A stretch of 39,935 nucleotides of DNA from a virus: positions 1 through 39,935 of IMG/VR virus record IMGVR_UViG_3300032069_000024; one strand, 5' to 3'. The first letter of the stretch is position 1. Each line of letters starts with the position of its first letter. Of this stretch, positions 7,274 through 37,247 are shown in pieces. The notes beneath the pieces were generated by a model, which ran no database searches, was not told where the DNA came from, and was given only the letters and a program-made list of their open reading frames with translations. Both the position numbers and the translations under genes were made by a program.

Positions 7274-7289
7274 TATAATTAAAAAGGAC

Positions 7290-7325
7290 TTGACAAATGG
7301 GATTATTTATACTATAGTATAAATA
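7290..7325 (+). promoter_or_regulatory. Promoter with overlapping perfect palindrome (operator), leaderless HNH
   Basis: TTGACA (7290-7295), 17-bp spacer and TATAGT (7313-7318) are followed by 6 nt and the ATG at 7325. A perfect 22-bp palindrome (7304-7325, centre TATACTATAGTATA) covers the -10, the start site and the first base of the ATG, a place where a dimeric repressor would block transcription. A second box, TGATATAAT (7271-7279), lies just upstream. The 6-nt gap predicts a leaderless mRNA. Confidence 0.7.
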
Positions 7326-7750
7326 TGTCAAATCAAATCTTAAAATCTTACTGGAAATTGAAAAATAAAAAAAGACGCGAATATCGTCATAAGTATTATC
7401 TTCAAAATAAAGAAAGACAATTGTCTCAGGTAAAAAAATGGCAGAAAGACAATAAAGAAAAAGTTTATTCTTATATTAAGAAATGGAATAAGAAATACCG
7501 AAAAAGGGGCAGATACCCACGATGCGGACGAAATCGCCTGTATGTATATGAACGCGATAATTATACTTGTCAAATTTGTAAAAAAAAATATCCTTATAAC
7601 AAATTAGATATTCATCATATTGATAATCATGGAAGACACGACACTGATAATGGGTTGAAAGTCAATAATCAGCCGACTAATCTACAAACACTCTGTAAAA
7701 GTTGTCATGGGAGATTACATAGATTACAATATTTAGGAGGGAGAAAATAA
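7325..7750 (+). CDS. HNH endonuclease (141 aa)
   Basis: The first 65 residues are strongly basic and helical (Lys, Arg, Tyr and Trp-rich), likely a DNA-binding arm. Residues 72-130 form the HNH nuclease: C82-x2-C85, H97-H98, then C124-x2-C127-H128. There is no ribosome site; the -10 box lies 6 nt before the ATG, so the mRNA is probably leaderless. The stop codon abuts the ATT start of the lysozyme-like gene, and the SD of that gene lies inside this one. The base composition is more AT-rich than the following gene, consistent with a recently moved element. Confidence 0.9.
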   Translation: MSNQILKSYWKLKNKKRREYRHKYYLQNKERQLSQVKKWQKDNKEKVYSYIKKWNKKYRKRGRYPRCGRNRLYVYERDNYTCQICKKKYPYNKLDIHHIDNHGRHDTDNGLKVNNQPTNLQTLCKSCHGRLHRLQYLGGRK

Positions 7751-11719: not shown

Positions 11720-11747
11720 TTGACAACAGCGGGTTATTGTCTATAAT
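11720..11747 (+). promoter_or_regulatory. Promoter for a leaderless RHH gene
   Basis: TTGACA (11720-11725), a 16-bp spacer and TATAAT (11742-11747). The ATG at 11754 lies exactly 6 nt after the -10, with no SD, so the transcript should begin at or next to the start codon. Confidence 0.75.
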
Positions 11748-11753
11748 AAAACT

Positions 11754-11933
11754 ATGGAAACAAAGAAAGAATCAACAATTATATTCTATATTCGCGTGCC
11801 TGTCTCTTGGCATAGAGATCTTAAAAAAATAGCCGATGAAGTCAGACAAGATATGGGGAGTATGCTCAGACCTTATATTTATTTGGCAGTCAAAGATATT
11901 AAAAATAAATTTGAGAAAGGAGAACCAGTATGA
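11754..11933 (+). CDS. Ribbon-helix-helix-like regulator (59 aa)
   Basis: Leaderless start: the -10 is 6 nt before the ATG. Residues about 8-16 form a strand (TIIFYIRVP) followed by helices SWHRDLKKIADEV and MGSMLRPYIYLAV, the strand-helix-helix layout of Arc/MetJ-type DNA-binding dimers. It overlaps the next gene by 4 bases. It may control its own promoter or groES/groEL downstream; neither is shown. Confidence 0.6.
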   Translation: METKKESTIIFYIRVPVSWHRDLKKIADEVRQDMGSMLRPYIYLAVKDIKNKFEKGEPV

Positions 11934-12364
11934 AAATTCAACTGCGGGAGCTTCTGCCGGCGATGCCGGCGCTAAACAAGATTATTAGTGTGCCGTTTAA
12001 GAACGCCAAATTGGCCTATTCGATTATGAAGACTTCAAAAAAAGTTTTGAGCGAACTGGAAAACATAGAGAAGATGAGATTGGAATTAATTAAAAAGTAT
12101 GCGGAGTTAGATGAGAGGGGTCAGCCGGTTTTAGATGGCAGTCAATTTAAGTTAAGAGATCCTAGGGGTTTTGAGAAGGAATGGGACGATTTTATGGAAA
12201 CAGAAATTGACTTGGATGTCTGGATGTTGCCATTTGAGGCAATAGAAAATGTCCAACCACCACTATCTATTGCCGAAATGAATACTATTGATAAGTTTAT
12301 CAACGAAGATAAAAGAGAACAAGAAATTAAAGAGGCAGAGAAGCCGCAAGAGGAGGTAAAGTGA
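11930..12364 (+). CDS. DUF1617-like phage protein (144 aa)
   Basis: SD GAGAAAGGAG. The helical N-terminal two thirds (helices with LAYSIMKTSKKVLSELENIEKMRLELIKKYAE) and the acidic Asp/Glu-rich C-terminus with a LSIAEMNTIDKFI segment resemble the DUF1617 family of small phage proteins often found beside structural or packaging genes. The family's role is unknown. It overlaps groES by 4 bases, so it is probably in the same operon as the chaperonin. Confidence 0.55.
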   Translation: MKIQLRELLPAMPALNKIISVPFKNAKLAYSIMKTSKKVLSELENIEKMRLELIKKYAELDERGQPVLDGSQFKLRDPRGFEKEWDDFMETEIDLDVWMLPFEAIENVQPPLSIAEMNTIDKFINEDKREQEIKEAEKPQEEVK

Positions 12365-12696
12365 GCAAAAAAATTATTCCTCTTGCAGGGATGGTGCTCG
12401 TCGAGGACGAAGAAGAAAAACTTTCAAGCGGAATTGTATTGGCGGAAGAAAAGGATAAGCAGTCGCAGGTTGGGAAGGTGGTTGATCACACATCCATAAA
12501 AGAAGAAGGAGTCAGACAATTATTAGAAGCTGGATACCAGTTAACTTTACAAGATAATTATGATTTCTACAAAAGTAATCAAATAAAAATCGGTGATACC
12601 ATCATCTACAAAAAATACTCTGCTAGCGAAGTAGAATTGGAAGGTAAAAAATATCGGATTGTGGCTTTCCAGGACATTATTGGTATAATAAAATAA
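12361..12696 (+). CDS. groES: Phage GroES co-chaperonin (111 aa)
   Basis: Start GTG 12361, 5 nt after AGGAGG. The GroES pattern is clear: an N-terminal strand with PLAGMVLVEDEEE, the flexible mobile loop (about 17-31, with the SSGIVLAEE contact that binds GroEL), and the C-terminal signature GDTIIYKKYSASEVELEGKKYRIV. The region between, about residues 43-75, is longer than in the 97-residue E. coli protein (roughly 15 extra residues in the roof area). T4 gp31 has a comparable enlargement that makes room for the capsid protein; the same purpose here is inference. groEL follows 21 bases later. Confidence 0.95.
   Translation: MSKKIIPLAGMVLVEDEEEKLSSGIVLAEEKDKQSQVGKVVDHTSIKEEGVRQLLEAGYQLTLQDNYDFYKSNQIKIGDTIIYKKYSASEVELEGKKYRIVAFQDIIGIIK
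12681..12689 (+). promoter_or_regulatory. Extended -10 promoter inside the groES end, for groEL
   Basis: TGGTATAAT (hexamer 12684-12689) lies in the last codons of groES, with the SD AGAAAGGA and ATG 12718 downstream. A separate groEL start would let GroEL be made in excess of GroES. A gene-specific role cannot be proved from sequence. Confidence 0.5.
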
Positions 12697-12717
12697 GAAT
12701 AGAAAGGAACATTTCAA

Positions 12718-14391
12718 ATGTCCAAAGAACTTTTGTTTGATCTTAAGGCACGAGAAAAACTATTAGTAGGAACTGGAAAAGTTTGCCGCGTAGTTGGGTC
12801 TACTCTAGGTCCCAAAGCGGCCAATGTTGCTATTGAGAGACCATTCGGATCGCCGAGCATCCTCCACGATGGGGTTAGCTGTGCAAAGGAGATAGATTTA
12901 GATGACTCGTTTGAGAACTTAGGAGCTCAACTTATCAAGGAAGCCGCCCAGAAGACTAATGACAATTCGGGAGACGGAACTACCACCGCGACAATTCTAA
13001 CTCATGCGATCGCTTCTGAGGCGATCAAAAACATCGCCGCCGGCTCTAACGCGATGATGTTGCGCAAGGGCATCGAGATGGCGGTGAAAGATATTGTGAC
13101 CGCCCTGAAGAATATGTCGCAGAAGATTAAAACCAACGAGGAGATAAAGCAGATCGCCACCATCAGCGCCCAAGACGAGACCATCGGCTCCCTCATCGCC
13201 GGGGCGATTGAGAAGCTGGGCAAGGATTGTGTGATTGCGGTTGAGGAGTCAAACACGGTCGGGATGAACGTCGAATACAAAGAGGGCATGCAGTTTGACA
13301 AGGGTTGGATCTCGCCGTATTTAATCACCAACCCCCAGACAATGGAAGCGATAATTGACGAACCATATATAGTAATCACGGACGCTAAACTTACCACTAA
13401 CACACAATTTATGGAGTGGGCGAGATACTTAGAGAATCTTTATACTACCGATAAAAGAAAAGAGAACCCGAACGCCCCGGTGCAGATGCCGAAGAACATC
13501 GTCTTTATTGTCGGTGAAGTCTCTGGTATTGCTTTAGGTTCTATAATTCAAAACAAAATTCAAGGATTCTTTAACGTCTTGGCGGTTCAGGCTCCTCAAC
13601 ATGGCGACAAACAAAAAGAATTCTTACAGGACTTGGCGATTGTTACCGGCGGAACTTTTATTTCCGAGGAGACGGGCGGTTCTTTAGCGACGATGAAGTT
13701 AGAAGATTATGGCCACGCCAAAAAGGTGGTCTCAACTAAAGACAGCACAATGGTTATTAGCGGCGAAGGCAACAAGGAAGATATTAAAAAAAGAGTTGAG
13801 CAATTGGAGCATATTCTATCTTCAGATGACACTTCGGAATTTGAGAAGGAAAACTTAAAAGAGCGAATAGCTAAACTGACTTCCGGGATTGCGGTTATCA
13901 ATGTCGGCGCGCCTTCAGAGATGGAGATGAGAGAGAAGAAAGAACGCTGTATTGACGCTATTGAGGCGACTAAAGCGGCGATCGAAGAAGGTATCGTGCC
14001 GGGTGGTGAAGTGGCTTATTTATATGCATCTAAAAGAATAGAAACCGCACCAGGTAATGAACGAGATATAATGACAGGTTATGAATTAGTATTTAAAGCC
14101 ATCAAAAAACCATTCCAGACGCTTATGTCTAATTCGGGATATGATGCTGGACAGATGTTAGAAAAGATTGAGCAGGCACAATTCGCCGACGAGGTTAAAA
14201 ACATCGGTATTGACGTGATTGACGGTCAGATTAAGGATATGGTCAAGGCCGGTATTATTGATCCAGTGAAAGTCAGTAGGACTGCCTTAGAAAATGCGGC
14301 CTCCTGTGCGGCTTCAATTTTAACTACTAATTCTTTGGTGGTTACCAAGAAGGAAAAAGAAGATGGACGAGATACGCCGTCTCAACCATGA
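12718..14391 (+). CDS. groEL: Phage GroEL chaperonin (557 aa)
   Basis: A full-length group I chaperonin. Catalytic and ATP-site residues are kept: D51 (LHDGVSC), the phosphate loop GDGTTTAT (85-92) and D413 in RCIDAIEATKAA (E. coli D52, D87, D398). The apical domain (about 190-375) carries about 16 extra residues (near 240-258, including a Lys/Glu/Asn/Pro stretch) beside the helix that binds substrate and GroES. The usual GGG near residue 430 is GGE, and the GGM-rich tail is missing. ATP-driven rings fold proteins in a closed chamber with GroES. It is encoded within the early-to-packaging transition, so phage coat, portal or large internal proteins are likely clients. Its last bases overlap the next gene. 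Confidence 0.97.
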   Translation: MSKELLFDLKAREKLLVGTGKVCRVVGSTLGPKAANVAIERPFGSPSILHDGVSCAKEIDLDDSFENLGAQLIKEAAQKTNDNSGDGTTTATILTHAIASEAIKNIAAGSNAMMLRKGIEMAVKDIVTALKNMSQKIKTNEEIKQIATISAQDETIGSLIAGAIEKLGKDCVIAVEESNTVGMNVEYKEGMQFDKGWISPYLITNPQTMEAIIDEPYIVITDAKLTTNTQFMEWARYLENLYTTDKRKENPNAPVQMPKNIVFIVGEVSGIALGSIIQNKIQGFFNVLAVQAPQHGDKQKEFLQDLAIVTGGTFISEETGGSLATMKLEDYGHAKKVVSTKDSTMVISGEGNKEDIKKRVEQLEHILSSDDTSEFEKENLKERIAKLTSGIAVINVGAPSEMEMREKKERCIDAIEATKAAIEEGIVPGGEVAYLYASKRIETAPGNERDIMTGYELVFKAIKKPFQTLMSNSGYDAGQMLEKIEQAQFADEVKNIGIDVIDGQIKDMVKAGIIDPVKVSRTALENAASCAASILTTNSLVVTKKEKEDGRDTPSQP

Positions 14392-15972: not shown

Positions 15973-16357
15973 AGAAGCCGTTGAAGCCTACATCAAAAAT
16001 GATATCAAAAAACTCGAAGAATACACCGCCAAAAAAGAGCCGATCATAGTGATACTTGGGCATATACAGAGGGGCAACTTCTATAACCATGCGTGCCAGT
16101 TGGCTAGAGTATCGGTAACTCAATTCGACGTATGGAAACGGAGGAAAGCGTCATTTGCGTTAGCAGTTGACCTTGCAGACGCAAAAGCAATAGATGAATT
16201 GAGGGGAATTATTAAGGAGCATGCTACTAACGAATGGACAGCGGCAAGATATTTATTATCAGTTAAGGATAGGAGATATCGTGAATCAAGTGAGGTTGAT
16301 GTTGAAGGCAGATTGGAGATGGTTCATATTTACAAGCCGAAAGTTGAGAATAAATAA
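15959..16357 (+). CDS. terS: Terminase small subunit (132 aa)
   Basis: Directly upstream of the large terminase, with TAATG overlap. The N-terminal third is helical and binds DNA; a helix-turn-helix can be read at about residues 42-62 (FYNHACQLARVSVTQFDVWKR), followed by a helical core with ALAVDLADAKAIDELR and NEWTAARYLLSVKDRRYRE, which is typical of small terminases that assemble into rings and recognise the packaging site. Assignment is by the helix-turn-helix pattern plus position. Confidence 0.8.
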   Translation: MKYNKEAVEAYIKNDIKKLEEYTAKKEPIIVILGHIQRGNFYNHACQLARVSVTQFDVWKRRKASFALAVDLADAKAIDELRGIIKEHATNEWTAARYLLSVKDRRYRESSEVDVEGRLEMVHIYKPKVENK

Positions 16358-17808
16358 TGGAATGGAAGCCGTTTCCCAAACAAGAGGTAGCTCTCAACAG
16401 CACCGCTTTTGAAACTCTTTTTGGTGGCAGTCGCGGACCTGGCAAGACCGATGCCGGGATGGTATGGCTTTTGGGGCCGGAGTATCAGCCGGGCAAACTG
16501 TATATTCAGCACCCGCGATATAGAGCACTCGTTTTAAGAAAAAACTACGATGATTTGGTTGACTGGCTCGATCGGGCGGAGTATATGTATGAAGCTTACG
16601 GCGCTCAAATAGCCGGTCTGCCAGCAGTGGTCAGGTGGCCTTCAGGGGCTATTTTTAGAACCGGGCACTTAAAAGACCGGCGGTCTTATGAGAAGTATTT
16701 AGGCCACGAATACCAGCGGATCTTGATTGAGGAACTGACGCTTATTCCGCAGGAGCGATATTATATTCAGGTTCTGGGTTCCTGCCGGTCAACCTTTACG
16801 GATTTGATCCCGAAGATATTCAATACTTCTAACCCGGATGGTGCCGGGCACGCCTGGGTCAAACGGCGCTTTATCGATCCGGCGCCGTGGGGGAAGGAAT
16901 TTATTGGCGCTGACACCGGCAGGACGCGGATATTCATCCCGGCGACGATCGAGGACAACCCGATTCTTCAACAAAAAGACCCCGGTTATGTTTCTTATCT
17001 TAACGGTCTCAAGGTTACTGATCCCGAACTTTACAAGGCTTGGCGGCTGGGCGACTGGAATATTTTCATCGGCCAGGTTTTTCGGGAATTTCTCAATAGT
17101 GTTCATGTTATCCCAAAGCCAGAAATTCCTCTGGATAGATGCAAGCGAATCATCACCTTTGACTGGGGATACAACGCCCCGGGCTGCGCTCTGTGGCTGG
17201 CCGTGGCTCCGGAAGATAGATTCGGTATTCAGCGAGTCTATTGTTATCGTGAACTTTATCAGAACCAAAAGACTCCTGAAGAGTGGGCAGACGAGATAAA
17301 CGTTTTCGCTTCAATTGAACCGACCGAATATTTAGTCTTGCCGCGGGACTGCTACGCCTCTGATAAAGGTGAACGCTCAATTGCCTCTATCTTTCAAAGC
17401 AAGATTAAGACGAGGATAGTCGAGGGAGAGTCGCTAACACGGACAGCGCGGCTGAATCGTCAAGCGGTTACTCATCAGTTCTTAGCGAACGTCCGGGATG
17501 GACGACCGAATCTTTTGATTTTGGAGCGCTGTCAGAATCTGATTAGGACCTTGCCTGAATTGGTGTATGATGAGGTTGATCAGGAGTTGGTGGACACAGA
17601 AGGCGAGGATCACGCGTTCGACAGCCTAGGCATGGGACTGCGGTTTATCAAACAAAAATATCATCTTCTGTCTGGGCCGGTGAGGCCAGTGACGGGGCGA
17701 CCCGGCGAAGGCTTGACGGTGACTAAATCTGGAGAACTTAGAGCCCCTGACTTTTGGGAAGAATTTAAATATCGTCAAACAAAACGTGGTATGCCGGAGA
17801 ATAAGTGA
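16357..17808 (+). CDS. terL: Terminase large subunit (483 aa)
   Basis: ATPase domain: Walker A GGSRGPGKT (23-31) and Walker B RILIEE (121-126), with a coupling-type SNPDG segment near residue 160. Nuclease domain: RNase H-like, first Asp in ITFDWGYNAPGC (about residue 268), further acidic residues in YASDKGER (about 330) and DTEGEDHAFDSLGMGL (about 412-427). It cuts and pumps DNA into the prohead. Start at ATG 16357 overlaps the small-terminase stop. The stop is followed directly by TGATATAAT. Confidence 0.97.
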   Translation: MEWKPFPKQEVALNSTAFETLFGGSRGPGKTDAGMVWLLGPEYQPGKLYIQHPRYRALVLRKNYDDLVDWLDRAEYMYEAYGAQIAGLPAVVRWPSGAIFRTGHLKDRRSYEKYLGHEYQRILIEELTLIPQERYYIQVLGSCRSTFTDLIPKIFNTSNPDGAGHAWVKRRFIDPAPWGKEFIGADTGRTRIFIPATIEDNPILQQKDPGYVSYLNGLKVTDPELYKAWRLGDWNIFIGQVFREFLNSVHVIPKPEIPLDRCKRIITFDWGYNAPGCALWLAVAPEDRFGIQRVYCYRELYQNQKTPEEWADEINVFASIEPTEYLVLPRDCYASDKGERSIASIFQSKIKTRIVEGESLTRTARLNRQAVTHQFLANVRDGRPNLLILERCQNLIRTLPELVYDEVDQELVDTEGEDHAFDSLGMGLRFIKQKYHLLSGPVRPVTGRPGEGLTVTKSGELRAPDFWEEFKYRQTKRGMPENK

Positions 17809-17814
17809 TATAAT
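17806..17814 (+). promoter_or_regulatory. Extended -10 with leaderless ATG at 17821
   Basis: TGATATAAT (hexamer 17809-17814), overlapping the terminase stop codon; the ATG at 17821 is 6 nt later with no ribosome site, so the transcript is probably leaderless. Confidence 0.7.
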
Positions 17815-17820
17815 AAAATT

Positions 17821-18141
17821 ATGATGATGGTACCCGCCGCTTTTAAGACAAAAGTGCCAGAGATATCAGTTTGGTTAGATGACAATATTGCCGACGAAAA
17901 GATATTGAAAAAGTTTCATTGTGTTGTTTGCGGCAAGACGGTCTTTGAATATTATTCTGATATTGATATTATCATCGCTGGTAAGCATCTTCAAAAGAGA
18001 CCAAAAGTGATTCAATGTAATAATATAGTCATTATGGATTCAGTCACCCAACAAGTTGTTAATGTAACCACTGAAGATTACAACGCCAATCGTAATCGAT
18101 ATTTTAAGATTAAGTGCCGAACGAAATATTGGATTAGCTGA
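17821..18141 (+). CDS. Unknown zinc-ribbon-like protein between terminase and portal (106 aa)
   Basis: It begins MMMVPAAF; three consecutive Met codons, first 6 nt behind the -10. One Cys pair (CVVCGK, about residues 33-38) and two more Cys (about residues 66 and 98) may bind zinc; the rest is beta-rich. Such small proteins lie next to portal genes in some phages, but I cannot name a family. The leaderless start differs from the SD-led portal gene that follows. Confidence 0.65.
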   Translation: MMMVPAAFKTKVPEISVWLDDNIADEKILKKFHCVVCGKTVFEYYSDIDIIIAGKHLQKRPKVIQCNNIVIMDSVTQQVVNVTTEDYNANRNRYFKIKCRTKYWIS

Positions 18142-18152
18142 AGGAGAATTAT

Positions 18153-20258
18153 ATGGATCAACCAACTCCAAAACCCACCGAAGAATTAAGAAAAGAAGAA
18201 GCTTCTCTTATTCATCCTTCGCTGAAGCTTGATATTGAAGATAACCTTTTGGTTAGACTGATTGAGACAAGAATCAAAGCCGATGACGAATTCTATAACG
18301 GCCGGCTTAAATTAGACAAGCGTCGCAAAAGAATGAATGATTTTTGGTTAGGTAAGCAGATAGACGAATCGCAGCTTGATTTAAGTTGGCAGATTCCTTA
18401 TGTCGATAATATCATCTGGCGAGATTTAGAGACTCGGATTGGCATCGCCGCTGCGCGACTGCCAGAGATAATTGTTATTCCGCCGAGTGATGATCCAACC
18501 ACCAGAGAGCGCGCCAAGAAGGTTGAGGACGGTTTGACTATCAGAGTTCTAAACGATGATATCAGACGTTTAGTCAAAGACGGTATCCGCGATAACCACC
18601 TTAATTTCACCGGTGTTATCAAAATTCCCTGGGACCCCAATAGGGGAGAGAACGGCGATTTTGTTTTTGAGAAAATTGATCCCAGAAAAATTGGCATGGA
18701 TCACACCGCCACAATTCCCCATGATGGCTATACCGCCGACAATATGGAATTAATTTATGAATGGATTGAGGAGCCGGTAGGCGTGGTGATGGCTAAGTTC
18801 CCCGACAAGAGAGAAGAACTTAAAAAGAGATTAAAAATCATCTTAGGCACCACTCAACAGATGGCGGCGAAAATGCGCTATTTGGAAGTTTGGTTTACGT
18901 GGTTTGATAAGGACGGCACGCGGCAGGAAGGCGTCTGTTGGAAGTATAAGAATATGATTTTAGATAAAGCCAAAAATCCATATTATGACTGGGAAGGCGT
19001 GGAAAAGCCGACCCAAGATGAGAACGGTCTGCCAATCACGAAAACGGTTTATCAAAACTTCTTTGAACGGCCGCGCAAGCCCTATATTTTCTTTACTCAT
19101 CAGAACTTAGGCAATTCGCCAATAGATGATACGACCGCGGTGGAGCAGGCAATTCCAATCCAGCGCAATACCAATAAGCGGGGCCGGCAGATCACCGAGA
19201 TTGCCGACAACGCCGTGCCTAAGAAAGTCTTTAACGGCAATTTTATTACCAAAGAAGAAGCCCGGCGGGTTTCTCAAGACCCTGGCGAACATGTTTGGTT
19301 AGATGGATCGGGTGGTAATTTAGATGATGTTCGAAAAGCTTTTGGAACGATCGAATCTGCTCCGCCTTCGCCAATGCTCTATGACGATTTAATTGCTAAT
19401 CGCGGCGAGATTGATTCAATGTTTTCTACTCATTCAACCACGCGCGGCGAGACACAACCTCAACAATCGGGCATTGCCAAACAGATCACCCGTGAAGGCG
19501 ATTTAACTATTTCAGATGACCTGGTAGAGACGATGGTCGTCAGGGTCATCTCCGAGATGGCTGGTTGGGCCTTGCAGATGATGAAGACGATGTATAATAA
19601 GGAACACTATCTTCGGTCGATGGGTAAGGACGGCGAGATGGTCTCCTTGTCGCTGGCGCAAGATAGTATTGACGAAGGCATTTCGCTCAAAGTTAAAGCT
19701 TCTACTATTGATAAAGTTAGACGACGTGGAGAAGCAATGGAATTAGCCACTTCCAAGAGCATTGATCCTTTAACGCTTTTTGAGGACATGGATGTGCCCA
19801 ATCCCAAAGAGCGAGCTCAAAGACTAATTGCTTTCATGCGCGGGGAGATGGATGGCTATGCGGCTTATGAGCAGGTTACAGGACTTGCCGGGGGCAAAGA
19901 AGGCGCTCCACAGGGGCAGCCAGGGGCTCCTGGATTGACTGCTGCTCAAGCCCAGCAAGATATTCAGTCTCTTATGGCTGGTCAGCCGGTCGAACCGCAA
20001 GGGATGCCGACCGCCGAATATGTCCAGGCCTTTATGGACTTTTCTAATTCAGGTCAGTTAGAGCAGTTGCCGCCAGAAGTCCATCAGAACTTCCTACAAT
20101 ATATCCAGAAGCTCAAGGCGATGATTGCTCAGCAAGCGGGAGGACAAGTAGGAGTCCCCACAGCCGCTCCGCCTTCCGCTCCAATGACTGCTCAACCACC
20201 AGCTACGACTATGACGCCTGCCGTTCCCGAAGGTGGAAGCCCGCAACCAACAATTTGA
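18153..20258 (+). CDS. Portal protein (701 aa)
   Basis: SD AAGGAG. The core (about 25-480) fits a large podovirus-type portal: the N-terminal helical clip/stem region, a conserved DFWLGKQIDES segment, IPYVDNIIWRDLETRIG, an ECxxx-like strand with KIPWDPNRGENGDFVFEKIDP (about 150-175), and ERPRKPYIFFTHQNLG in the wing. The C-terminal 110 residues (after about 585) are low-complexity Gln/Pro/Ala. The portal is a dodecamer at one capsid vertex through which the DNA passes. It follows the terminase block and precedes scaffold and coat, the usual order. At 701 residues it is longer than most siphovirus portals. Confidence 0.9.
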   Translation: MDQPTPKPTEELRKEEASLIHPSLKLDIEDNLLVRLIETRIKADDEFYNGRLKLDKRRKRMNDFWLGKQIDESQLDLSWQIPYVDNIIWRDLETRIGIAAARLPEIIVIPPSDDPTTRERAKKVEDGLTIRVLNDDIRRLVKDGIRDNHLNFTGVIKIPWDPNRGENGDFVFEKIDPRKIGMDHTATIPHDGYTADNMELIYEWIEEPVGVVMAKFPDKREELKKRLKIILGTTQQMAAKMRYLEVWFTWFDKDGTRQEGVCWKYKNMILDKAKNPYYDWEGVEKPTQDENGLPITKTVYQNFFERPRKPYIFFTHQNLGNSPIDDTTAVEQAIPIQRNTNKRGRQITEIADNAVPKKVFNGNFITKEEARRVSQDPGEHVWLDGSGGNLDDVRKAFGTIESAPPSPMLYDDLIANRGEIDSMFSTHSTTRGETQPQQSGIAKQITREGDLTISDDLVETMVVRVISEMAGWALQMMKTMYNKEHYLRSMGKDGEMVSLSLAQDSIDEGISLKVKASTIDKVRRRGEAMELATSKSIDPLTLFEDMDVPNPKERAQRLIAFMRGEMDGYAAYEQVTGLAGGKEGAPQGQPGAPGLTAAQAQQDIQSLMAGQPVEPQGMPTAEYVQAFMDFSNSGQLEQLPPEVHQNFLQYIQKLKAMIAQQAGGQVGVPTAAPPSAPMTAQPPATTMTPAVPEGGSPQPTI

Positions 20259-20263
20259 TTTTG

Positions 20264-20272
20264 TGATATAAT
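20264..20272 (+). promoter_or_regulatory. Extended -10 with leaderless ATG at 20279
   Basis: TGATATAAT (hexamer 20267-20272), then AAAAAT and ATG 20279; no ribosome site. The same 6-nt spacing as at 7325, 11754, 17821 and 26569. Confidence 0.7.
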
Positions 20273-20278
20273 AAAAAT

Positions 20279-20575
20279 ATGAGCATATTAGATTGGTTTA
20301 AGAAACAACCTAAAAGAGATACTGAAGTTGATAGTCAGCGATTCAAGGTTGATACTCGTCTTCCTGTCCGGGACACCGGCGCTGATTGGAAAAGTTTTTA
20401 TGTCAGCAAGGTCAAGAGCGGCTGGACGCCATATGGATGGAAGCGCGATAAGTCAGGTGATATCAAAAAAAAGATGTTTTATGTTCCAAACCCCAAAAAG
20501 CAAAAAGAGGAGCGAGAACAATTAAAAACAGAATACTTACAATATTTGTCCGGAAAATATGGACAGGAGGCATGA
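20279..20575 (+). CDS. Unknown small head-region protein (98 aa)
   Basis: Leaderless start, basic and short. Conserved-looking parts are LDWFKKQPKRDT at the start and WTPYGWKRDKSGDIKKKMFYVPN in the middle, which suggest a small beta hairpin; the end is a Lys/Glu helix. Its position between portal and scaffold suggests a minor head or assembly protein. No family recognised. Confidence 0.65.
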   Translation: MSILDWFKKQPKRDTEVDSQRFKVDTRLPVRDTGADWKSFYVSKVKSGWTPYGWKRDKSGDIKKKMFYVPNPKKQKEEREQLKTEYLQYLSGKYGQEA

Positions 20576-20790
20576 TGCCATTCAAATCAAAAGCGCAACA
20601 AAGGTGGATGTTTGCCGCCGAAGCCCGCGGTGAAGTGCCAAAAGGGACAGCCGAGCGATGGGCTCATGAGACCAAAAGTATCAAAAGCTTACCCGAGAAG
20701 AAAGCCGCTAAAGGCAAAAGCAAAGCCAAAAAGACTTCGGTGCACAAAAAAGCTTTAGAAGTCCTTAAAGAAAAATCACACGGAGAGTAA
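20575..20790 (+). CDS. Small basic phage protein (PFKSKAQQRWMF type, 71 aa)
   Basis: The start is ATG 20575 (SD GGAGG at 20566-20570); ATG 20572 is an alternative. PFKSKAQQRWMFAAEARGEV then ERWAHETKSIKSLPE is a pattern I know from many phages as a short protein of unknown function that sits near head genes. The last half is Lys-rich. Its presence supports a typical phage head-gene neighbourhood. Confidence 0.75.
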   Translation: MPFKSKAQQRWMFAAEARGEVPKGTAERWAHETKSIKSLPEKKAAKGKSKAKKTSVHKKALEVLKEKSHGE

Positions 20791-21084
20791 ATGCCGAAGG
20801 AAGATGTCGTCGAAAGAATCAAACCGACGCTTTATTTGACCGAAAAAGACTGCCCCAAGATTAAAGGAATGAAGGTCAATCAGGGTTATGATTTTATCAT
20901 CCATGCTAATATGAAATCACTGTCAATCGGAGATGAGACGGGCAATTCCAAATCAAAGAAACCTTTACACTCCGGCCGGTTTGAGATCGTCTCTGTTGAA
21001 GCCCCGGAAGCCACTCAAAAATTAAATGAAGAAGACTTTGATGAGAAAAAAATAAAAGTATTAGAACAAAAAGCTAACGAATAA
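20791..21084 (+). CDS. Unknown small head-region protein (97 aa)
   Basis: SD CGGAGAG; beta-rich (LYLTEKDCPKIKGMKVNQGYDFII and a KPLHSGRFEIVSVEAPE hairpin) with an acidic helical tail. It lies between the portal-linked genes and the scaffold, suggesting a minor head component. No family recognised. Confidence 0.65.
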   Translation: MPKEDVVERIKPTLYLTEKDCPKIKGMKVNQGYDFIIHANMKSLSIGDETGNSKSKKPLHSGRFEIVSVEAPEATQKLNEEDFDEKKIKVLEQKANE

Positions 21085-21105
21085 TTTTAGAAAGGAGCAT
21101 TTAAC

Positions 21106-21837
21106 ATGCCCAACCCACTGGAAAATCTATTAGGAGACGAGTCACAAACGCCTCCTGCTGGCGATAAAAAGCCAGAACCAAATCCTGAGTTAGACTCTCT
21201 GAAGGAATCCGTCAACACGCTTGGCGATAATTTACAATCGCTGAACGACAAATTGAGCGGGATCGAAGAAAAACTGGTCACTCCATCGCCCGCTGAAGAA
21301 CCCGGGGAGGAATTGCCTTACACCGGCCCGGCTGGACAGCCACGCGATTGGAAGGAAGTCAGAGAGACGGCGAGAAAAGATGCCGAAGAAGTGGCTGAAG
21401 AAAAATTAAGAGCCAAAGAAGAAGAAGCAGAAGCACGATATGCTGAAGAGGAAAAAGAGCGGGGAGCGATTAATGAGGCGTTTAATAAACAAATTGACGA
21501 GATGGAAAAGGATAATTTAATCCAGCCGATTAAAAATATGGACGATCCAGAAGATCCGGGTAAAGTGGAAAGACGCGAGATCTTTGGTTATGCCGGCTAC
21601 CGGCTCAAGAGCACTGATTTGAAAGCCGCCAAAGAAGCTTTAGACCAATACCATCAAAACGGGATGGCTTTTGATCCGAAAAGTAATAAGTTCATCCGCA
21701 CGCGGACTTCATCGCCCGGACAGACCGTGCCAGTTGGATCATCTTCATCGCGCGGAGCGAGTGGTAAATCACCAATTGATTACAAAACTTTACACGCTCA
21801 TTCAATTGATTCGCTTATTCAGATGTCTCAAGAATAG
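21106..21837 (+). CDS. Scaffolding protein, probable (243 aa)
   Basis: SD AAAGGAG. Composition and position fit a scaffold: acidic, rich in Glu, Lys, Ala and Pro, a coiled-coil stretch (about 85-145, EEVAEEKLRAKEEEAEARYAEEEK), little globular character, and a short conserved-like C-terminal region before the coat gene (HAHSIDSLIQMSQE) that could bind the coat protein. Scaffolds direct prohead assembly and leave. There is no protease signature. Confidence 0.75.
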   Translation: MPNPLENLLGDESQTPPAGDKKPEPNPELDSLKESVNTLGDNLQSLNDKLSGIEEKLVTPSPAEEPGEELPYTGPAGQPRDWKEVRETARKDAEEVAEEKLRAKEEEAEARYAEEEKERGAINEAFNKQIDEMEKDNLIQPIKNMDDPEDPGKVERREIFGYAGYRLKSTDLKAAKEALDQYHQNGMAFDPKSNKFIRTRTSSPGQTVPVGSSSSRGASGKSPIDYKTLHAHSIDSLIQMSQE

Positions 21838-21842
21838 ACGAC

Positions 21843-21872
21843 TTGACTTTTTCAAATTAAGTATTATATAAT
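21843..21872 (+). promoter_or_regulatory. Promoter of the major capsid operon
   Basis: TTGACT (21843-21848), an 18-bp spacer and TATAAT (21867-21872). Transcription would start near 21879, just ahead of the leader hairpin. Placed between scaffold and coat genes. Confidence 0.7.
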
Positions 21873-21883
21873 AATATTAAAGA

Positions 21884-21919
21884 CGCTTTAAGCAGTCCGC
21901 CAACTTTGGGCTGTTTTTT
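21884..21919 (+). terminator. Leader terminator (attenuator) before the coat gene
   Basis: CGCTTTAAGCAG at 21884-21895 begins 12 bases after the -10. The stem CAGTCC (21893-21898) with GGGCTG (21908-21913, one G-U) is followed by T6 (21914-21919): a short rho-independent-like terminator only about 40 nt into the transcript. The same 12-mer, at the same distance from a -10, leads another hairpin/T-run at 37206. It suggests transcription attenuation of late genes, opened by an unknown antiterminator. Confidence 0.7.
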
Positions 21920-21945
21920 ATTAAACAATAATAGAAAGGACTACT

Positions 21946-23022
21946 ATGACTTTTTCCGATCAAATTATGGCGATGACACAGGAAGTATTAATTCCTAAAA
22001 TCGTCGACAACGTATTGAATTCAAACATTTTATGTTTGAGGCTCATCGGCAACGCCTTGCAAGGCAAAGGCTATGATATCCGCAAATCAATTAAGTATCA
22101 GTTATCTGGCACGGCCTCGTCTTTTGCCGGGCTTGATACTTTCAGTGCCGCTCAGCTTTCAACCAAAGTGAAGATGGTCTATGACATGCGCGGAGCTCGA
22201 CAGCCCGTGGCTATTTCTGGTATGGATGCCGTGGCCAATGCTTCAGCCGAATCGAAGACTGATTTAGTCAAAGAAGCGGTCGAAGAGACTCAGCAAGAAT
22301 TGGTTGATGCAATTGGGACGATGATCTATGGCACTGGCACCGGCAACGCCAACAAAGACTTCCTCGGTCTGGGAGCGATTGTTGATGATGGCACCGATGT
22401 TACAACTCTTGCCGGTCTGTCACGAACCACTTACTCGGTCTTAAATGCTACCCGAACCGCTTCTGGTGGGACTTTAACCTTAGCTAAATTGGCAACTCTT
22501 TTCTCAGCGATTTCTTCTGGTTCAGGTAACGCCTCGCCGACTTTGATGGTTTCCAACGAGACCGTTTGGGATCTTTACGAGCAGTTATTAACTCCGATGG
22601 TTAGGGAGCAATACTCGATGATGGGATATTACGATGTCGGACGAGTGGGCGGTGCCAAGAGGGCTGGACAGGGTTTGGTTGGCACCCAGGGCTTTGTGGC
22701 GGTTTCCTACAAGGGAATTCCTTTTGTCCGCGACGAGAAAGCCACCTCTCAAAACCTCTTTATGCTTAACGAGAACTGGATGGATTGGTATGGCTGGGAC
22801 GCCAAGGGATTTGCTGACTACTCTAAAGTTGCCTTCACTTCAACCCAAATTGAGGGCGAATATGCCGAACCGCCGATGAGCAACTTCACCGGCTTCAACT
22901 GGTCAGGCCTGAAGACTCCGACCAATCAATTCGGGGTGATCGCCGACGTGATTCTCTTGGGCAACCTGACTTCGTGGCAGCCACGCCGCCAAGGCCGCTT
23001 GACTGGTATCACCGGGGTTTGA
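21946..23022 (+). CDS. Major capsid protein (358 aa)
   Basis: SD AAAGGA. Follows scaffold and begins the structural operon. The alternating helix and beta pattern (MTFSDQIMAMTQEVLIPKIVD, a KSIKYQLSG strand, a DAVANASAESKTDLVKEAVEET helix and a C-terminal YKGIPFVRDEKA strand) matches an HK97-fold coat protein of the P22/podovirus type. No maturation protease or delta domain is visible, so processing may be minimal. GroES/GroEL encoded upstream could assist its folding. Confidence 0.9.
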   Translation: MTFSDQIMAMTQEVLIPKIVDNVLNSNILCLRLIGNALQGKGYDIRKSIKYQLSGTASSFAGLDTFSAAQLSTKVKMVYDMRGARQPVAISGMDAVANASAESKTDLVKEAVEETQQELVDAIGTMIYGTGTGNANKDFLGLGAIVDDGTDVTTLAGLSRTTYSVLNATRTASGGTLTLAKLATLFSAISSGSGNASPTLMVSNETVWDLYEQLLTPMVREQYSMMGYYDVGRVGGAKRAGQGLVGTQGFVAVSYKGIPFVRDEKATSQNLFMLNENWMDWYGWDAKGFADYSKVAFTSTQIEGEYAEPPMSNFTGFNWSGLKTPTNQFGVIADVILLGNLTSWQPRRQGRLTGITGV

Positions 23023-23060
23023 CCTTGAAACTAAAATAATTTTAATACGAAAGGACAATT

Positions 23061-23798
23061 ATGAAACTTGAATCTATCGCGACCATCCTTGACTTTGATC
23101 CTTATAAAACAAGGACGGAGGCGGGTTCAACGCACAATCTTGGTGAATTAGTCGCTTTAGCTGATCAGCGAAAATTCCGCTATGCGGTAGCTGGAGCCTC
23201 CAATATTTCTCACGGCAAGCTTCAGTTAGCGCCGGCGCCGAAGACGAACCACCACAACATTGTTGTTTATGCGACGGCGGCAATTAATGCAACCGAAGTT
23301 CAGGCCACATTGGGTGCGACCGCAGCCACCGCCAACGAATACAGCGAAGGTTATCTTTGTGTCAACGACGCTACCGGCGAAGGATATACCTATAAGATTT
23401 CGGGGCACGCGGCCGCTGCCCAGTCCGCGGTGATTACCGTTGAACTCTTTGACCCGATCAAAGTGGCCTTAGTGGCTGCAACATCGGAAATTTCCTTGCT
23501 CTATAATACCTACAATGGAGTAGTCGAGGGAACTTCCGCGACCCAATCTCCGGCCGGTGTTCCGTATGTTGACATTTCGAGCGGCGATTATGGCTGGCTT
23601 CAGACACGGGGTGTCGCTGCGGTATTGAACGGCGCTTCAGTCACTTTGGGCGCAAGACTTATGGCTTCCAGTGCCACAGCTGGCGCCGTTGTTGACCAAA
23701 CCGACGTCACCGCTCCACAGGCCGAATGGCAAATTGGCTTTGCTATCACCGTCGGGGTCTCGACCGAATACAAACCAATATTCCTCACAATAGATTAG
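23061..23798 (+). CDS. Virion decoration-type protein (245 aa)
   Basis: SD CGAAAGGA. It follows the coat gene; the sequence is beta-rich, Ala/Thr/Val-heavy, with repeated small-residue strands (AINATEVQATLGATAATAN) typical of structural proteins on the head surface. The exact family is not recognised. Candidate roles are head decoration or head fibre; position supports a virion role. Confidence 0.7.
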   Translation: MKLESIATILDFDPYKTRTEAGSTHNLGELVALADQRKFRYAVAGASNISHGKLQLAPAPKTNHHNIVVYATAAINATEVQATLGATAATANEYSEGYLCVNDATGEGYTYKISGHAAAAQSAVITVELFDPIKVALVAATSEISLLYNTYNGVVEGTSATQSPAGVPYVDISSGDYGWLQTRGVAAVLNGASVTLGARLMASSATAGAVVDQTDVTAPQAEWQIGFAITVGVSTEYKPIFLTID

Positions 23799-23806
23799 GA
23801 GATTAA

Positions 23807-23965
23807 ATGGCAAAAAAAGTAAAAGCAACCGCAGCAGTTGCTGCTAAAGAAGAAGAAGCTTCCAAAGGGTGCAAAAACTGCAATAACACAGGACTGATTG
23901 GAAAAGGAGTTGAGGCCAAACTCTGTCCCATTTGCAACGGATCTCCTTTTGGAGAACCTAAATAA
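23807..23965 (+). CDS. DnaJ-type zinc-knuckle microprotein (52 aa)
   Basis: SD TAGGAGA before ATG 23807. A Lys/Ala-rich N-terminus is followed by two CxxC units: C22-x2-C25 (GCKNCN) and C42-x2-C45 (CPICNG). The C-x2-C-x-G pattern resembles the DnaJ central zinc finger. Role unknown; it sits inside the structural operon. Confidence 0.65.
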   Translation: MAKKVKATAAVAAKEEEASKGCKNCNNTGLIGKGVEAKLCPICNGSPFGEPK

Positions 23966-23977
23966 TAAAGGAGCAAA

Positions 23978-24490
23978 ATGGCAATAAATATTGAAGAACA
24001 CATTCCTGTGGTAAAGCAAGAAGGTTTGAATACCGCTAAGAACATTACCACGACAGGAAATTTCACGTCGACAGGCACCTTTGATATGTCATCCTCTTCC
24101 TCTGCTTTCACCACCCCTACAGGTGTAAATACTTTAAGTGGTAATACTAAGATAGCTACCGGCAAGACTCTTTCGGTTCTTGACAACGGCACGGCCACGG
24201 CTACGACGGGTGCAGCAACCCTTAGCAAGTCTGCCGGCGTTATCACCTCTGAATCATTAAGTACGGCAGCGGGGGCAACCTATACGCTGACTTTGACCAA
24301 TACTGTGGTAGCCGCGGCAGACATTGTTCTTGCATCCGTGGCACTGGGAACGGCAACCGCCGGTATGCCTGTTATTACCACTGTTGCTCCAGCAGCAGGG
24401 AGCGTAGTGATAGTCGTCCAGAATATCCACGCCTCAGCCGCTCTTAACGGCACGATAAAGATTTCCTTTATGGTTATTAAGGTAACCTAA
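23978..24490 (+). CDS. Virion surface / fibre-like protein (170 aa)
   Basis: SD AAAGGAG. Nearly pure beta-strand composition: Thr, Ser, Ala, Gly and Val-rich, with strand-turn repeats (ATATTGAATLSKSAGVIT, YTLTLTNTVV). The C-terminal 60 residues (VVAAADIVLASVALGTATAG, VVQNIHASAALNGTIKISFMVI) look like a compact trimeric knob often met on phage head or tail fibres. No adhesin enzyme is visible. Followed by a clear terminator. Confidence 0.65.
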   Translation: MAINIEEHIPVVKQEGLNTAKNITTTGNFTSTGTFDMSSSSSAFTTPTGVNTLSGNTKIATGKTLSVLDNGTATATTGAATLSKSAGVITSESLSTAAGATYTLTLTNTVVAAADIVLASVALGTATAGMPVITTVAPAAGSVVIVVQNIHASAALNGTIKISFMVIKVT

Positions 24491-24518
24491 ACTTAAAATA
24501 TAAAATAGGTCGATTCCG

Positions 24519-24542
24519 AAAGGATCCGGAAGGATCCTTTTT
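24519..24542 (+). terminator. Rho-independent terminator
   Basis: A 9-bp stem AAAGGATCC/GGATCCTTT (24519-24527 with 24532-24540) closes a GGAA loop and runs into T5. It ends the capsid operon before the next promoter. Confidence 0.85.
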
Positions 24543-24547
24543 GGTAT

Positions 24548-24573
24548 TTGACAAATTTAATTTGTGGTATAAT
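24548..24573 (+). promoter_or_regulatory. Promoter after the capsid operon terminator
   Basis: TTGACA (24548-24553) and TGGTATAAT (hexamer 24568-24573). The spacer is only 14 bp, so the extended -10 probably carries the activity. ATG 24593 follows with AAAGGA. Confidence 0.65.
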
Positions 24574-24592
24574 AAATCTAAAGGATTAAACT

Positions 24593-25051
24593 ATGCAAAC
24601 TCAATCAAGCTTCTATCGCGACGCTAACAGAGTTCCAATTGTTACAGATGGACTCATAACCAAAAGAACAATAACTTTTGCAGGTGGAACTACAGACGCC
24701 TGGGGAGATTATGACGGTGCTTTAAATGGCACGGCTATATTTACTGTTGAAGGATTGATTTTCGTAAAACTAATTGCAATTTGCACAGCAGATCTAATTG
24801 GCAATACTGCTACAATAGAAGTAGGTATTTCAGGTCAGACAACTATATTTATGCCACAAGAAACAGCTGCCGAGATTGTCGCAGACACTATTTGGCTTCA
24901 CGATGCGGCGAACGCTGATAACGCTATTATAGGAGAAGAAAGTGCGGCAACTGGCAATCTTCCCGAATGGGCTATTTTTGCTCAAGATATTATTTTAACG
25001 GTTGGAACAGCAAATATTACTAGCGGAGCATTAGATTTTTACTGCATATAG
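24593..25051 (+). CDS. Virion protein, beta-rich (152 aa)
   Basis: SD AAAGGA. Beta-rich, with FYRDANRVPIVTDGLITKRTITFAGG and a C-terminal SGALDFYCI. Starts with a promoter of its own after a terminator, so it may be regulated apart from the coat gene. A capsid or connector accessory role is inferred from position only. The 25052-25127 gap before the next gene has nothing I can support beyond an AAAGGAG ribosome site. Confidence 0.6.
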   Translation: MQTQSSFYRDANRVPIVTDGLITKRTITFAGGTTDAWGDYDGALNGTAIFTVEGLIFVKLIAICTADLIGNTATIEVGISGQTTIFMPQETAAEIVADTIWLHDAANADNAIIGEESAATGNLPEWAIFAQDIILTVGTANITSGALDFYCI

Positions 25052-25127
25052 AGACCGATATCTTCTGATGCCAACTTAACACCAACTACTACATAAAAAT
25101 ATAACTAATTTAGAAAGGAGCATTAAA

Positions 25128-25763
25128 ATGCCCAACCCAAAGACTGATTGTCAGGACATCTTAATTGTCCAGAATATCGATCTCAATTGCACTGATATCG
25201 ACAGCGAAGAAGGCTGGAGCCACGCTGATTTTTTTCAAGTTAAGTATGGCGGCGCGCCTTTAAGGATCGCCCCCGGGGAGACACGCCGGGTGCCACGCTA
25301 TCGAGCCGAGCACTATGCTAAGCACTTGGCTGATCATATGCTACAGAAGATGGAAGTCGAGACCGGTAAGCAGTTTTTAGTCAATAACGTGATTGAACGA
25401 CCGAAGATGCTGGCTAAGATTTTAGTCGGTGTCGATTCTTACTATTTAGAGCAAGATATCAAACCACCAACCGAGACCGATAAACTGATCGCCGAAGATC
25501 AACAACTCAATCCGCAAGAAGAAGAGAAAGCGATGGACTTAGGTGAAGTTCCCAATCCGATGGTAGGAGTTTTGAAGGAAGCCCCTAAAACACCGCCTCT
25601 GCCAGCAGACGAACCTGAAGAGGAAGGCAAAACATCGATTTTTGACCCCAAGAAGCCCAAACCATCGCGGGCGGCTTTAATCAAAGAATGCGCCAAGCTC
25701 GGGATAGAGTGGAAGATGACCGACTCGTACGAAACCTTAGAGGCAAAACTTAAGGCGTTCTAA
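25128..25763 (+). CDS. Structural-region protein with SAP/HeH-like C-terminus (211 aa)
   Basis: SD AAAGGAG. The first 120 residues are mixed (IAPGETRRVPRYRAEHYAKHLADHM and a NNVIERPKMLAKILV strand); residues 125-175 are an acidic Pro-rich linker; residues about 178-211 (PSRAALIKECAKLGIEWKM then ETLEAKLKAF) have the helix-extended-loop-helix look of SAP/HeH DNA-binding motifs. It overlaps the next gene by one base. Role unknown. Confidence 0.6.
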   Translation: MPNPKTDCQDILIVQNIDLNCTDIDSEEGWSHADFFQVKYGGAPLRIAPGETRRVPRYRAEHYAKHLADHMLQKMEVETGKQFLVNNVIERPKMLAKILVGVDSYYLEQDIKPPTETDKLIAEDQQLNPQEEEKAMDLGEVPNPMVGVLKEAPKTPPLPADEPEEEGKTSIFDPKKPKPSRAALIKECAKLGIEWKMTDSYETLEAKLKAF

Positions 25764-26551
25764 TGGATAGTTTTGAGAATGCGGCTAAATTTTTAAATGA
25801 TAATGTTAAAGAGCTTAAAAAACAGAAAAAAAGCTTAGAAATTGAAGTTGCTAATTTATGGGCTTCTAAGCAGGCAGGAAGACGACAATTATATCATCTC
25901 GGCGGTAACATCAGCATGCTTGAAAAGCAAAAGAAAACTCTGGAAGAGAAAATTACTGAAGAGATGGAGGCGATGAAAACCGCCAAGAGCCAACAGGAAG
26001 AAATGCTTAAAACCCAAAAAGAATTAACTCAAATAGAAATAATTAATAGTGGGAATGAGTTAGATAAAAAACGCGAGAAATTGGAGGCTGATAAGAAAAG
26101 GTATTTGACTGATAAGCAGGCTTTGGAGATTTACGAACTGGATCTCAAGAATTTTAATAAAGAATTGGATCAAAAAGCCAAAGACTTAGACGATAAGGAA
26201 AAAGATCTTAAGGAGCAACACTCTCTTGCCGATCAGAAACTCAAACTGGCAGGGGAGAAAGAAAAAGGCCTGACTGAAGAGAAGGCTATTTTTGAGAACG
26301 AGCAATCTACCAAGAGAGAAAAAATCGACAAGGAGCTCAAAGAAACTGAAACAAAACTAAAGGAAGTCAATGATTTATTAAAGACGCTCAACGACAGGAC
26401 TTTACAGATGCAGAAGGCTCAAAAAGATTTGGAAATCAGGGCAGATGTCCTCAATAAAAAAGCCTTTGTTTTAGAAGGCAAGGAGCGGGATCTAAGAAAA
26501 AGAGAGATTCTGCTCAAGGATCGGGAAGAATTATCAAAAAGCCATCTCTAA
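25763..26551 (+). CDS. Long coiled-coil protein (262 aa)
   Basis: Nearly the whole protein is one long charged heptad helix (Lys, Glu, Leu, Asp and Gln), for example residues about 105-235, with no catalytic motif. It could be a rod-like virion component. It starts at the final base of the previous stop and is followed by an extended -10 that leads the next gene. Confidence 0.7.
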   Translation: MDSFENAAKFLNDNVKELKKQKKSLEIEVANLWASKQAGRRQLYHLGGNISMLEKQKKTLEEKITEEMEAMKTAKSQQEEMLKTQKELTQIEIINSGNELDKKREKLEADKKRYLTDKQALEIYELDLKNFNKELDQKAKDLDDKEKDLKEQHSLADQKLKLAGEKEKGLTEEKAIFENEQSTKREKIDKELKETETKLKEVNDLLKTLNDRTLQMQKAQKDLEIRADVLNKKAFVLEGKERDLRKREILLKDREELSKSHL

Positions 26552-26553
26552 AG

Positions 26554-26562
26554 TGATATAAT
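26554..26562 (+). promoter_or_regulatory. Extended -10 with leaderless ATG at 26569
   Basis: TGATATAAT (hexamer 26557-26562), then AGAACT and ATG 26569; no SD. Fifth case of the exact 6-nt spacing. Confidence 0.7.
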
Positions 26563-26568
26563 AGAACT

Positions 26569-26985
26569 ATGAGTAGGGCTCGTAGAGACGAAAACAGAAT
26601 CGTGGCAATTATTGTAGAGTCCAGCGATGGCGATGGGACTATTATTCCTTTGGTAGCCGATCCGGTGACCAGTCGGCTTTTAGTGAACTCAACAATCTCC
26701 GGCTCTTTATCAATCGCGCCGCTGACAACGATTTATAATGGCTCTAAAACTGTCCCTACGGCCATGGCGGAGGCGATCGCCTCTTCACAGGCGGTTAGTA
26801 GCGTTACGGTGAAGGCTTTATCGACTAATACGGTTGCTGTTTATGTTGGAGTCTCTGGAGTGACAACCGCTAACGGTTTTGAATTATTGGCCGGGGAGTC
26901 TCTTAGTTTAGACATAGATAATCTGGCCGATGTCTTTGTAATTTCAGGGTCGGCATCTCAAGTAGTGAGGTATATTGCTATATGA
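26569..26985 (+). CDS. Beta-rich virion protein (138 aa)
   Basis: Leaderless start, then an Arg-rich N-terminus (SRARRDENRIVAIIV) and beta strands with SVTVKALSTNTVAVYVGVSG and ESLSLDIDNLADVFVISG. The pattern resembles small head-spike or decoration proteins that come as trimers. It overlaps the tail-fibre-like gene by 4 bases. No family recognised. Confidence 0.6.
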   Translation: MSRARRDENRIVAIIVESSDGDGTIIPLVADPVTSRLLVNSTISGSLSIAPLTTIYNGSKTVPTAMAEAIASSQAVSSVTVKALSTNTVAVYVGVSGVTTANGFELLAGESLSLDIDNLADVFVISGSASQVVRYIAI

Positions 26986-29221: not shown

Positions 29222-29230
29222 TGATATAAT
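29222..29230 (+). promoter_or_regulatory. Extended -10 promoter TGATATAAT
   Basis: TGATATAAT (hexamer 29225-29230), with AGAAAGGA and ATG 29250 downstream. No -35 apparent. Confidence 0.6.
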
Positions 29231-29249: not shown

Positions 29250-29423
29250 ATGAGATTTAAAGCAAGGATTGTAAATGGTCTTCCGGTAGTTTTAGCTGAA
29301 GCACTAAGAACAAAAAACAAAAATGGAGGATATGATATCACAATTCAAGCCCCAAGTTTACAATTAATTAATGATTTTATAGAAAGGAACAAAAATGGCA
29401 AGCGGGATTTACAATCGGTTTAA
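29250..29423 (+). CDS. Unknown small protein (57 aa)
   Basis: ATG 29250 after AGAAAGGA behind the extended -10. The product is basic and beta-like (RFKARIVNGLPVVLAEAL, then NGGYDITIQAPSLQLI). It overlaps the next gene by 29 bases. Function unknown; accepted on promoter plus ribosome site. Confidence 0.55.
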   Translation: MRFKARIVNGLPVVLAEALRTKNKNGGYDITIQAPSLQLINDFIERNKNGKRDLQSV

Positions 29424-32158: not shown

Positions 32159-32167
32159 TGATATAAT
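32159..32167 (+). promoter_or_regulatory. Extended -10 promoter TGATATAAT
   Basis: TGATATAAT (hexamer 32162-32167) directly after the previous stop codon, with AAAGGA and ATG 32183 next. Confidence 0.6.
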
Positions 32168-37185: not shown

Positions 37186-37194
37186 TGATATAAT
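37186..37194 (+). promoter_or_regulatory. Extended -10 promoter of the internal virion protein operon
   Basis: TGATATAAT (hexamer 37189-37194), just after the preceding gene and 12 bases before the CGCTTTAAGCAG element. Start site near 37201. Confidence 0.65.
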
Positions 37195-37203
37195 ATAAGT
37201 AAG

Positions 37204-37233
37204 ACCGCTTTAAGCAGGTATCAGCGGTTTTTT
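37204..37233 (+). terminator. Leader terminator (attenuator) before internal virion proteins
   Basis: ACCGCT (37204-37209) pairs with AGCGGT (37223-37228), followed by T6. The stem loop contains CGCTTTAAGCAG (37206-37217), identical to the element in the coat leader at 21884 and at the same 12-nt distance from the -10. A transcript would end about 33 nt after its start unless antiterminated. Confidence 0.7.
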
Positions 37234-37247
37234 ATTTAGGAGAATTT

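Follow-up and report, generated by a model that had tools for sequence, protein, structure and literature searches.

How does translation begin at a gene whose start codon lies exactly 6 nt behind a promoter hexamer? The question is posed by the window analysed here, a 39.9-kb IMG/VR virus record taken at its full length of 39,935 nucleotides, in which a TATAAT or TATAGT hexamer on the plus strand ends exactly 6 nt (N6) before the ATG of five genes, at 7325, 11754, 17821, 20279 and 26569. The -10 hexamer of a sigma70-type promoter normally spans positions -12 to -7, with six bases between hexamer and +1, and a 6-nt gap therefore makes the A of the ATG the +1 position. A sequence-only reading had predicted that these genes are transcribed into leaderless mRNAs alongside genes led by a Shine–Dalgarno (SD) sequence. 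All five sites are as it described them, and the prediction gains from the loss of SD at these sites, from two distinct gap classes, from conservation behind the terminase gene and from an ATG-only signal in Patescibacteria genomes.

Five promoters with a common spacing

Two of the five promoters carry a TTGACA -35 element. The first of these (7290-7295), with a 17-nt spacer to the TATAGT at 7313-7318 (TATAGT-ATAAAT-ATG), precedes a predicted leaderless HNH endonuclease gene (7325-7750), a label of the sequence-only reading that is sound (PHROG HNH matches, best E 3.6e-12). The second (11720-11725), with a 16-nt spacer to the TATAAT at 11742-11747 (TATAAT-AAAACT-ATG), precedes a predicted leaderless 59-aa ORF (11754-11933) that we assign to no family, the earlier RHH-like label finding only sub-threshold Pfam matches (RHH_7, E = 0.076; KH_2, E = 0.064). 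The previous ORF ends about 50 nt before 7325 and about 70 nt before 11754. The remaining three are extended -10 promoters (GTGATATAAT). At 17806-17814 the terminase gene (16357-17808) lends its TGA stop codon (17806-17808) to the extended -10 TGATATAAT, which leads (TATAAT-AAAATT-ATG) to a small, predicted leaderless gene between terminase and portal (17821-18141), whose gap is kept in relatives and whose product matched no Pfam or PHROG family. The same element lies directly 3' of the portal stop codon (20264-20272; TATAAT-AAAAAT-ATG), ahead of a predicted leaderless 98-aa gene (20279-20575), and at a gene junction (26554-26562; TATAAT-AGAACT-ATG), ahead of a 138-aa virion-region gene (26569-26985) that is likewise predicted leaderless and is followed by a gene resembling a tail fibre. 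The distance from the upstream stop to the ATG is 12, 20 and 17 nt for 17821, 20279 and 26569, and an SD motif is absent from the 20 nt upstream of the ATG in all five genes.

Two further features overlap the HNH promoter. A perfect 22-bp palindrome at 7304-7325 (TATTTATACTA/TAGTATAAATA) spans its -10, extends as far as the A of the HNH start codon, and is a candidate operator. In addition, 7274-7313 holds an upstream promoter with an AAAGGA site leading to a six-codon ORF (ATG at 7297), the TAG stop of which lies inside the TATAGT -10.

To place the five sites among the other promoters of the window, we surveyed 60 likely gene starts and counted TATA[AG]T hexamers up to 40 nt upstream of the ATG. 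The 13 hexamers found form two classes, one with a gap of 6 nt in five genes, none with an SD, and one with gaps of 14, 15, 17, 19, 19, 19, 20 and 28 nt in eight genes, every one with an SD (AAAGGA, AAGGA or GGAGG); the earlier observation that other promoters place an AAAGGA site between -10 and ATG thus extends to the whole second class. Comparators with AAAGGA-led leaders, all on the plus strand, are the TATAAT hexamers at 2127-2132 (gap 17, ATG at 2150), 12684-12689 (gap 28, groEL ATG at 12718) and 24568-24573 (gap 19, ATG at 24593), and the extended -10 elements TGATATAAT at 29225-29230 (gap 19, ATG at 29250) and 32162-32167 (gap 15, ATG at 32183). When the upstream regions were resampled under a first-order Markov model, N6 sites averaged 0.10 and numbered at most 3, five being reached in 0 of 2000 resamplings, and under a uniform-spacing model the probability that any one gap is common to 5 of 13 hexamers is 0.0008, in line with the earlier argument that so uniform a spacing speaks against chance.

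Relatives of the phage and its probable host

The comparison set consisted of 83 related loci on viral contigs, obtained in two scans, and two annotated phages. In the nearer group of 50 loci (window and L003 left out, duplicate sites removed, ORFs of at least 40 codons), TATAAT stands at N6 from an ATG 30 times, against a mean of 3.1 at other spacings (Poisson P 1.5e-19). Beside the peak there is a shoulder at N7-N9. Scrambled hexamers give a flat spacing in the related phage loci, and the distant group B, 32 loci comparable in both GC and TATAAT content, has no N6 site.

Conservation is clearest behind the terminase gene, where a TATAAT lies 5-7 nt ahead of the next gene's ATG in 11 of 37 loci versus 12 of 435 other gene ends, or, with relaxed -10 boxes, in 15 of 37 versus 24 of 435. 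This gap is still present at terminase identities as low as about 42-54% (examples are L004, L006, L105, L106, L107, L014, L118 and L137), and in L105 the terminase stop TAA falls inside the TATAAT; some relatives have a gap of 7 or 9. The spacing is not universal. Loss of the 6-nt gap in relatives, which had been named beforehand as evidence against the prediction, does occur in the orthologues of 17821 in L005 and of 26569 in L006, where the leader is longer (17 nt in L006) and contains an SD-like GAGG, but not for the post-terminase gene as a whole. In L308 the orthologue of 26569 is at N6; the promoter behind the portal gene of L004 has AAGGAG and then the next gene after it. Since L005, L006 and L004 switch start mode, it appears that among relatives the promoter tends to persist while the leader comes and goes. 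For 20279 there is one relative, in which the N6 ATG opens an 11-codon ORF; for 7325 the viral contigs offer only HNH-domain matches, none informative for spacing, and for 11754 they contain no orthologue.

Several other arrangements recur in these loci. At L003 (4098), L004 (17656) and L310 (about 1453), TATAAT or TAAAAT-N6-ATG opens ORFs of 11, 4 and 3 codons that have an SD-led gene behind them; these are possible leaderless mini-cistrons, and L310 has a terminator-like hairpin between the mini-ORF and the SD-led gene. A tRNA-like sequence (CCTACCTAGCTCAGTTGGTAGAGC...) begins directly 3' of the terminase stop codon in L124 (12250) and L125 (4994). In the window, a terminator-like hairpin with a T run, downstream of a TATAAT, lies directly before the capsid gene (21867-21946) and before the gene at 37248 (37189-37248), and both copies contain CGCTTTAAGCAG. 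Such a hairpin ends 3-20 nt before a portal or capsid ATG, usually without an SD, in L010, L013, L014, L015, L017, L118, L121, L123, L127, L128, L134, L135, L141 and L152. Attenuation or 5'-end stabilisation is a possible role of these hairpins.

The window has no direct DNA match to known phages and contains no Rfam families or tRNA genes. Its closest named relatives by terminase and capsid are Caudoviricetes sp. cthkR962 (MW202566; unassigned, from spring water at Manatee Spring) and TM7 phage DolZOral124_53_65 (MG269973; Saccharibacteria), with terminase identities of 49.5% and 37.4% and the only full-length matches to the major capsid protein (57% and 33%). The window encodes GroES (12361) and GroEL (12718), spanning 12361-14391, and chaperonin genes are present in both relatives, which nonetheless differ from the window in their terminases, only 50% and 37% identical, and in having few N6 sites. 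From the terminase and capsid kinship, together with the chaperonin genes common to both relatives, we infer that the host is likely a member of the Patescibacteria. Of 379 Patescibacteria genomes, only 2 contain terminase relatives (38-41% identity), and the closest matches in genome bins carry mixed taxonomic labels.

Start-codon spacing in Patescibacteria genomes

Patescibacteria make up a very large, mostly uncultured share of bacterial diversity and have reduced ribosomes. In 96 genomes (88 Mb) from the phylum of one Patescibacteria bin, a set whose membership rests on the title of the central record, TGnTATAAT precedes ATG at N6 488 times, at N5 102 times and at N12 79 times; 61 Bacillota genomes (156 Mb) show little excess, with 224 at N6 and 164 at N12. 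At the level of ORFs, counted over 400 kb per genome in four Patescibacteria genomes, ATG starts give 22-29 N6 sites per 400 kb, about 10 at N7 and about 4 elsewhere, while 800 kb of Bacillota sequence gives no N6 peak. Nor do GTG, TTG or CTG starts give one in the four genomes, such that the 5' AUG expected of leaderless genes is reflected at the DNA level in a signal limited to ATG. Across relatives and Patescibacteria genomes, an SD accompanies 0-5% of N6 genes versus 17-41% of other genes, and a TGn extension 38-59% versus about 5%. Several N6 genes have housekeeping functions: the ten Patescibacteria N6 genes that we checked include those for a class II aminoacyl-tRNA synthetase, tRNA nucleotidyltransferase, a UvrD-like helicase, FtsK and, in two genomes, LigA. 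The helicase and one LigA match their families from a position at most 8 residues away from the predicted start, which makes these two starts plausible.

The excess of N6 and N7 sites corresponds to roughly 5-8% of genes, a minimum in that only near-consensus -10 boxes were counted. We consider it likely that leaderless mRNAs supply a regular share of the proteins made throughout the Patescibacteria (roughly 5-8% of genes on the strict count, probably more with degenerate -10 boxes), that some lineages use a 5-nt spacing, and that their phages have adopted the same mode. In G041, G059 and G088, TGnTATAAT-N5-ATG occurs 11, 11 and 7 times versus 4, 6 and 7 at N6, and G041 peaks at N5 rather than N6 at ORF level; such lineages may have a shifted start-site distance.

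Proposed leaderless initiation, its alternatives and known systems

We suggest that at the five sigma70-type promoters the host RNA polymerase would start on, or about 1 nt from, the A of the ATG, giving transcripts that lack a leader and carry a 5'-terminal AUG. If other bacteria are a guide, ribosomes would then initiate on this AUG as 70S particles carrying initiator tRNA. Other genes of the phage use this type of promoter as well, there set 14-28 nt ahead of the ATG and paired with an AAAGGA-type SD. The phage would in this respect follow its probable host phylum, in which several per cent of genes have the same -10/ATG layout. We put the probability that the five genes have leaderless mRNAs made from sigma70-type promoters, beside SD-led genes and after the practice of the probable host phylum, at about 0.86.

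A functionally similar outcome would arise if flexible start-site selection placed the transcription start 1-3 nt upstream of the ATG, as a near-terminal AUG still loads ribosomes and would work nearly the same. The N7-N9 shoulder in the phages, the N7 sites in Patescibacteria genomes and the gaps of 7 or 9 in some relatives are consistent with such a very short leader, which we nevertheless regard as unlikely, given that the peak itself lies at 6, the canonical distance from -10 to +1, and that A is a good initiating base. Translation could also reinitiate on read-through mRNA of the upstream gene, the -10 being incidental or only adding transcript. With three of the five starts 12-20 nt behind an upstream stop, read-through transcripts with translational coupling could indeed supply these proteins too; however, 7325 and 11754 stand well clear of the previous ORF behind full -35/-10 promoters, and coupling predicts no exact -10 spacing, contrary to the N6 peak in phages and Patescibacteria genomes. 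Coupling may thus raise the output of three of the five genes without explaining the exact spacing, and as the full account of these starts it is quite improbable.

Misplaced start codons are less probable again. The true start might lie further downstream behind a normal leader, and 17821, which reads ATGATGATG, offers three in-frame ATGs, but the later ATGs have no preceding SD, orthologues start at the same place, and ATG is the only triplet that shows the N6 signal. Random occurrence in an AT-rich genome might be entertained on the grounds that TATAAT is frequent in the window, with some 70 copies over both strands, and that two minus-strand N6 matches have no clear gene. Chance is refuted, though, by the resampling and by the absence of N6 sites from the distant group of similar GC, and the scrambled hexamers without a peak argue the same way; we give it next to no weight.

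The leaderless process is known; what appears new is the phylum and the phage in which it is predicted here. In the open-access PMC literature we found no report of leaderless genes in Patescibacteria/CPR or their phages: papers on Patescibacteria/CPR that mention the word have it only among their references or in a general comment about YchF, and a 2023 mBio paper on phages and the CPR translation machinery contains neither "leaderless" nor "Shine-Dalgarno". Evidence for leaderless starts in this phylum and its phages bears on the age of this start mode and improves the prediction of gene starts in thousands of metagenome-assembled genomes. Because it separates the near from the distant clade within the terminase family, the N6 signature may also help to link phages to Patescibacteria hosts.

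The closest parallel is the TA-led or leaderless layout of Deinococcus-Thermus and Actinobacteria, in which a -10 lies about 6-7 nt before the ORF, without an SD and beside SD-led genes (Zheng 2011, PMC3160421; Zhong 2025, PMC12340547; Cortes 2013, PMC3898074). The window shares the -10 about 6 nt before the ORF, the missing SD and the SD-led genes alongside. Contrasting with the TANNNT -10 of TA-led genes, however, the -10 in the window and in Patescibacteria is a strong TATAAT, often TGn-extended, the share of genes is smaller, and the setting is a phage and a phylum for which we found no such report. Deinococcus pprI is described with a GTG start behind a -10 motif (PMC12340547), whereas Patescibacteria genomes give no GTG signal. 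Among phages, the lambda cI mRNA is leaderless, and a 70S initiation route serves leaderless mRNA (both reviewed in PMC9031893). As with cI, a phage gene here has an mRNA predicted to start at its own AUG; but while lambda has one such regulatory transcript, the window applies one geometry, that of its probable host phylum, to several classes of gene, from a nuclease to the head and virion regions.
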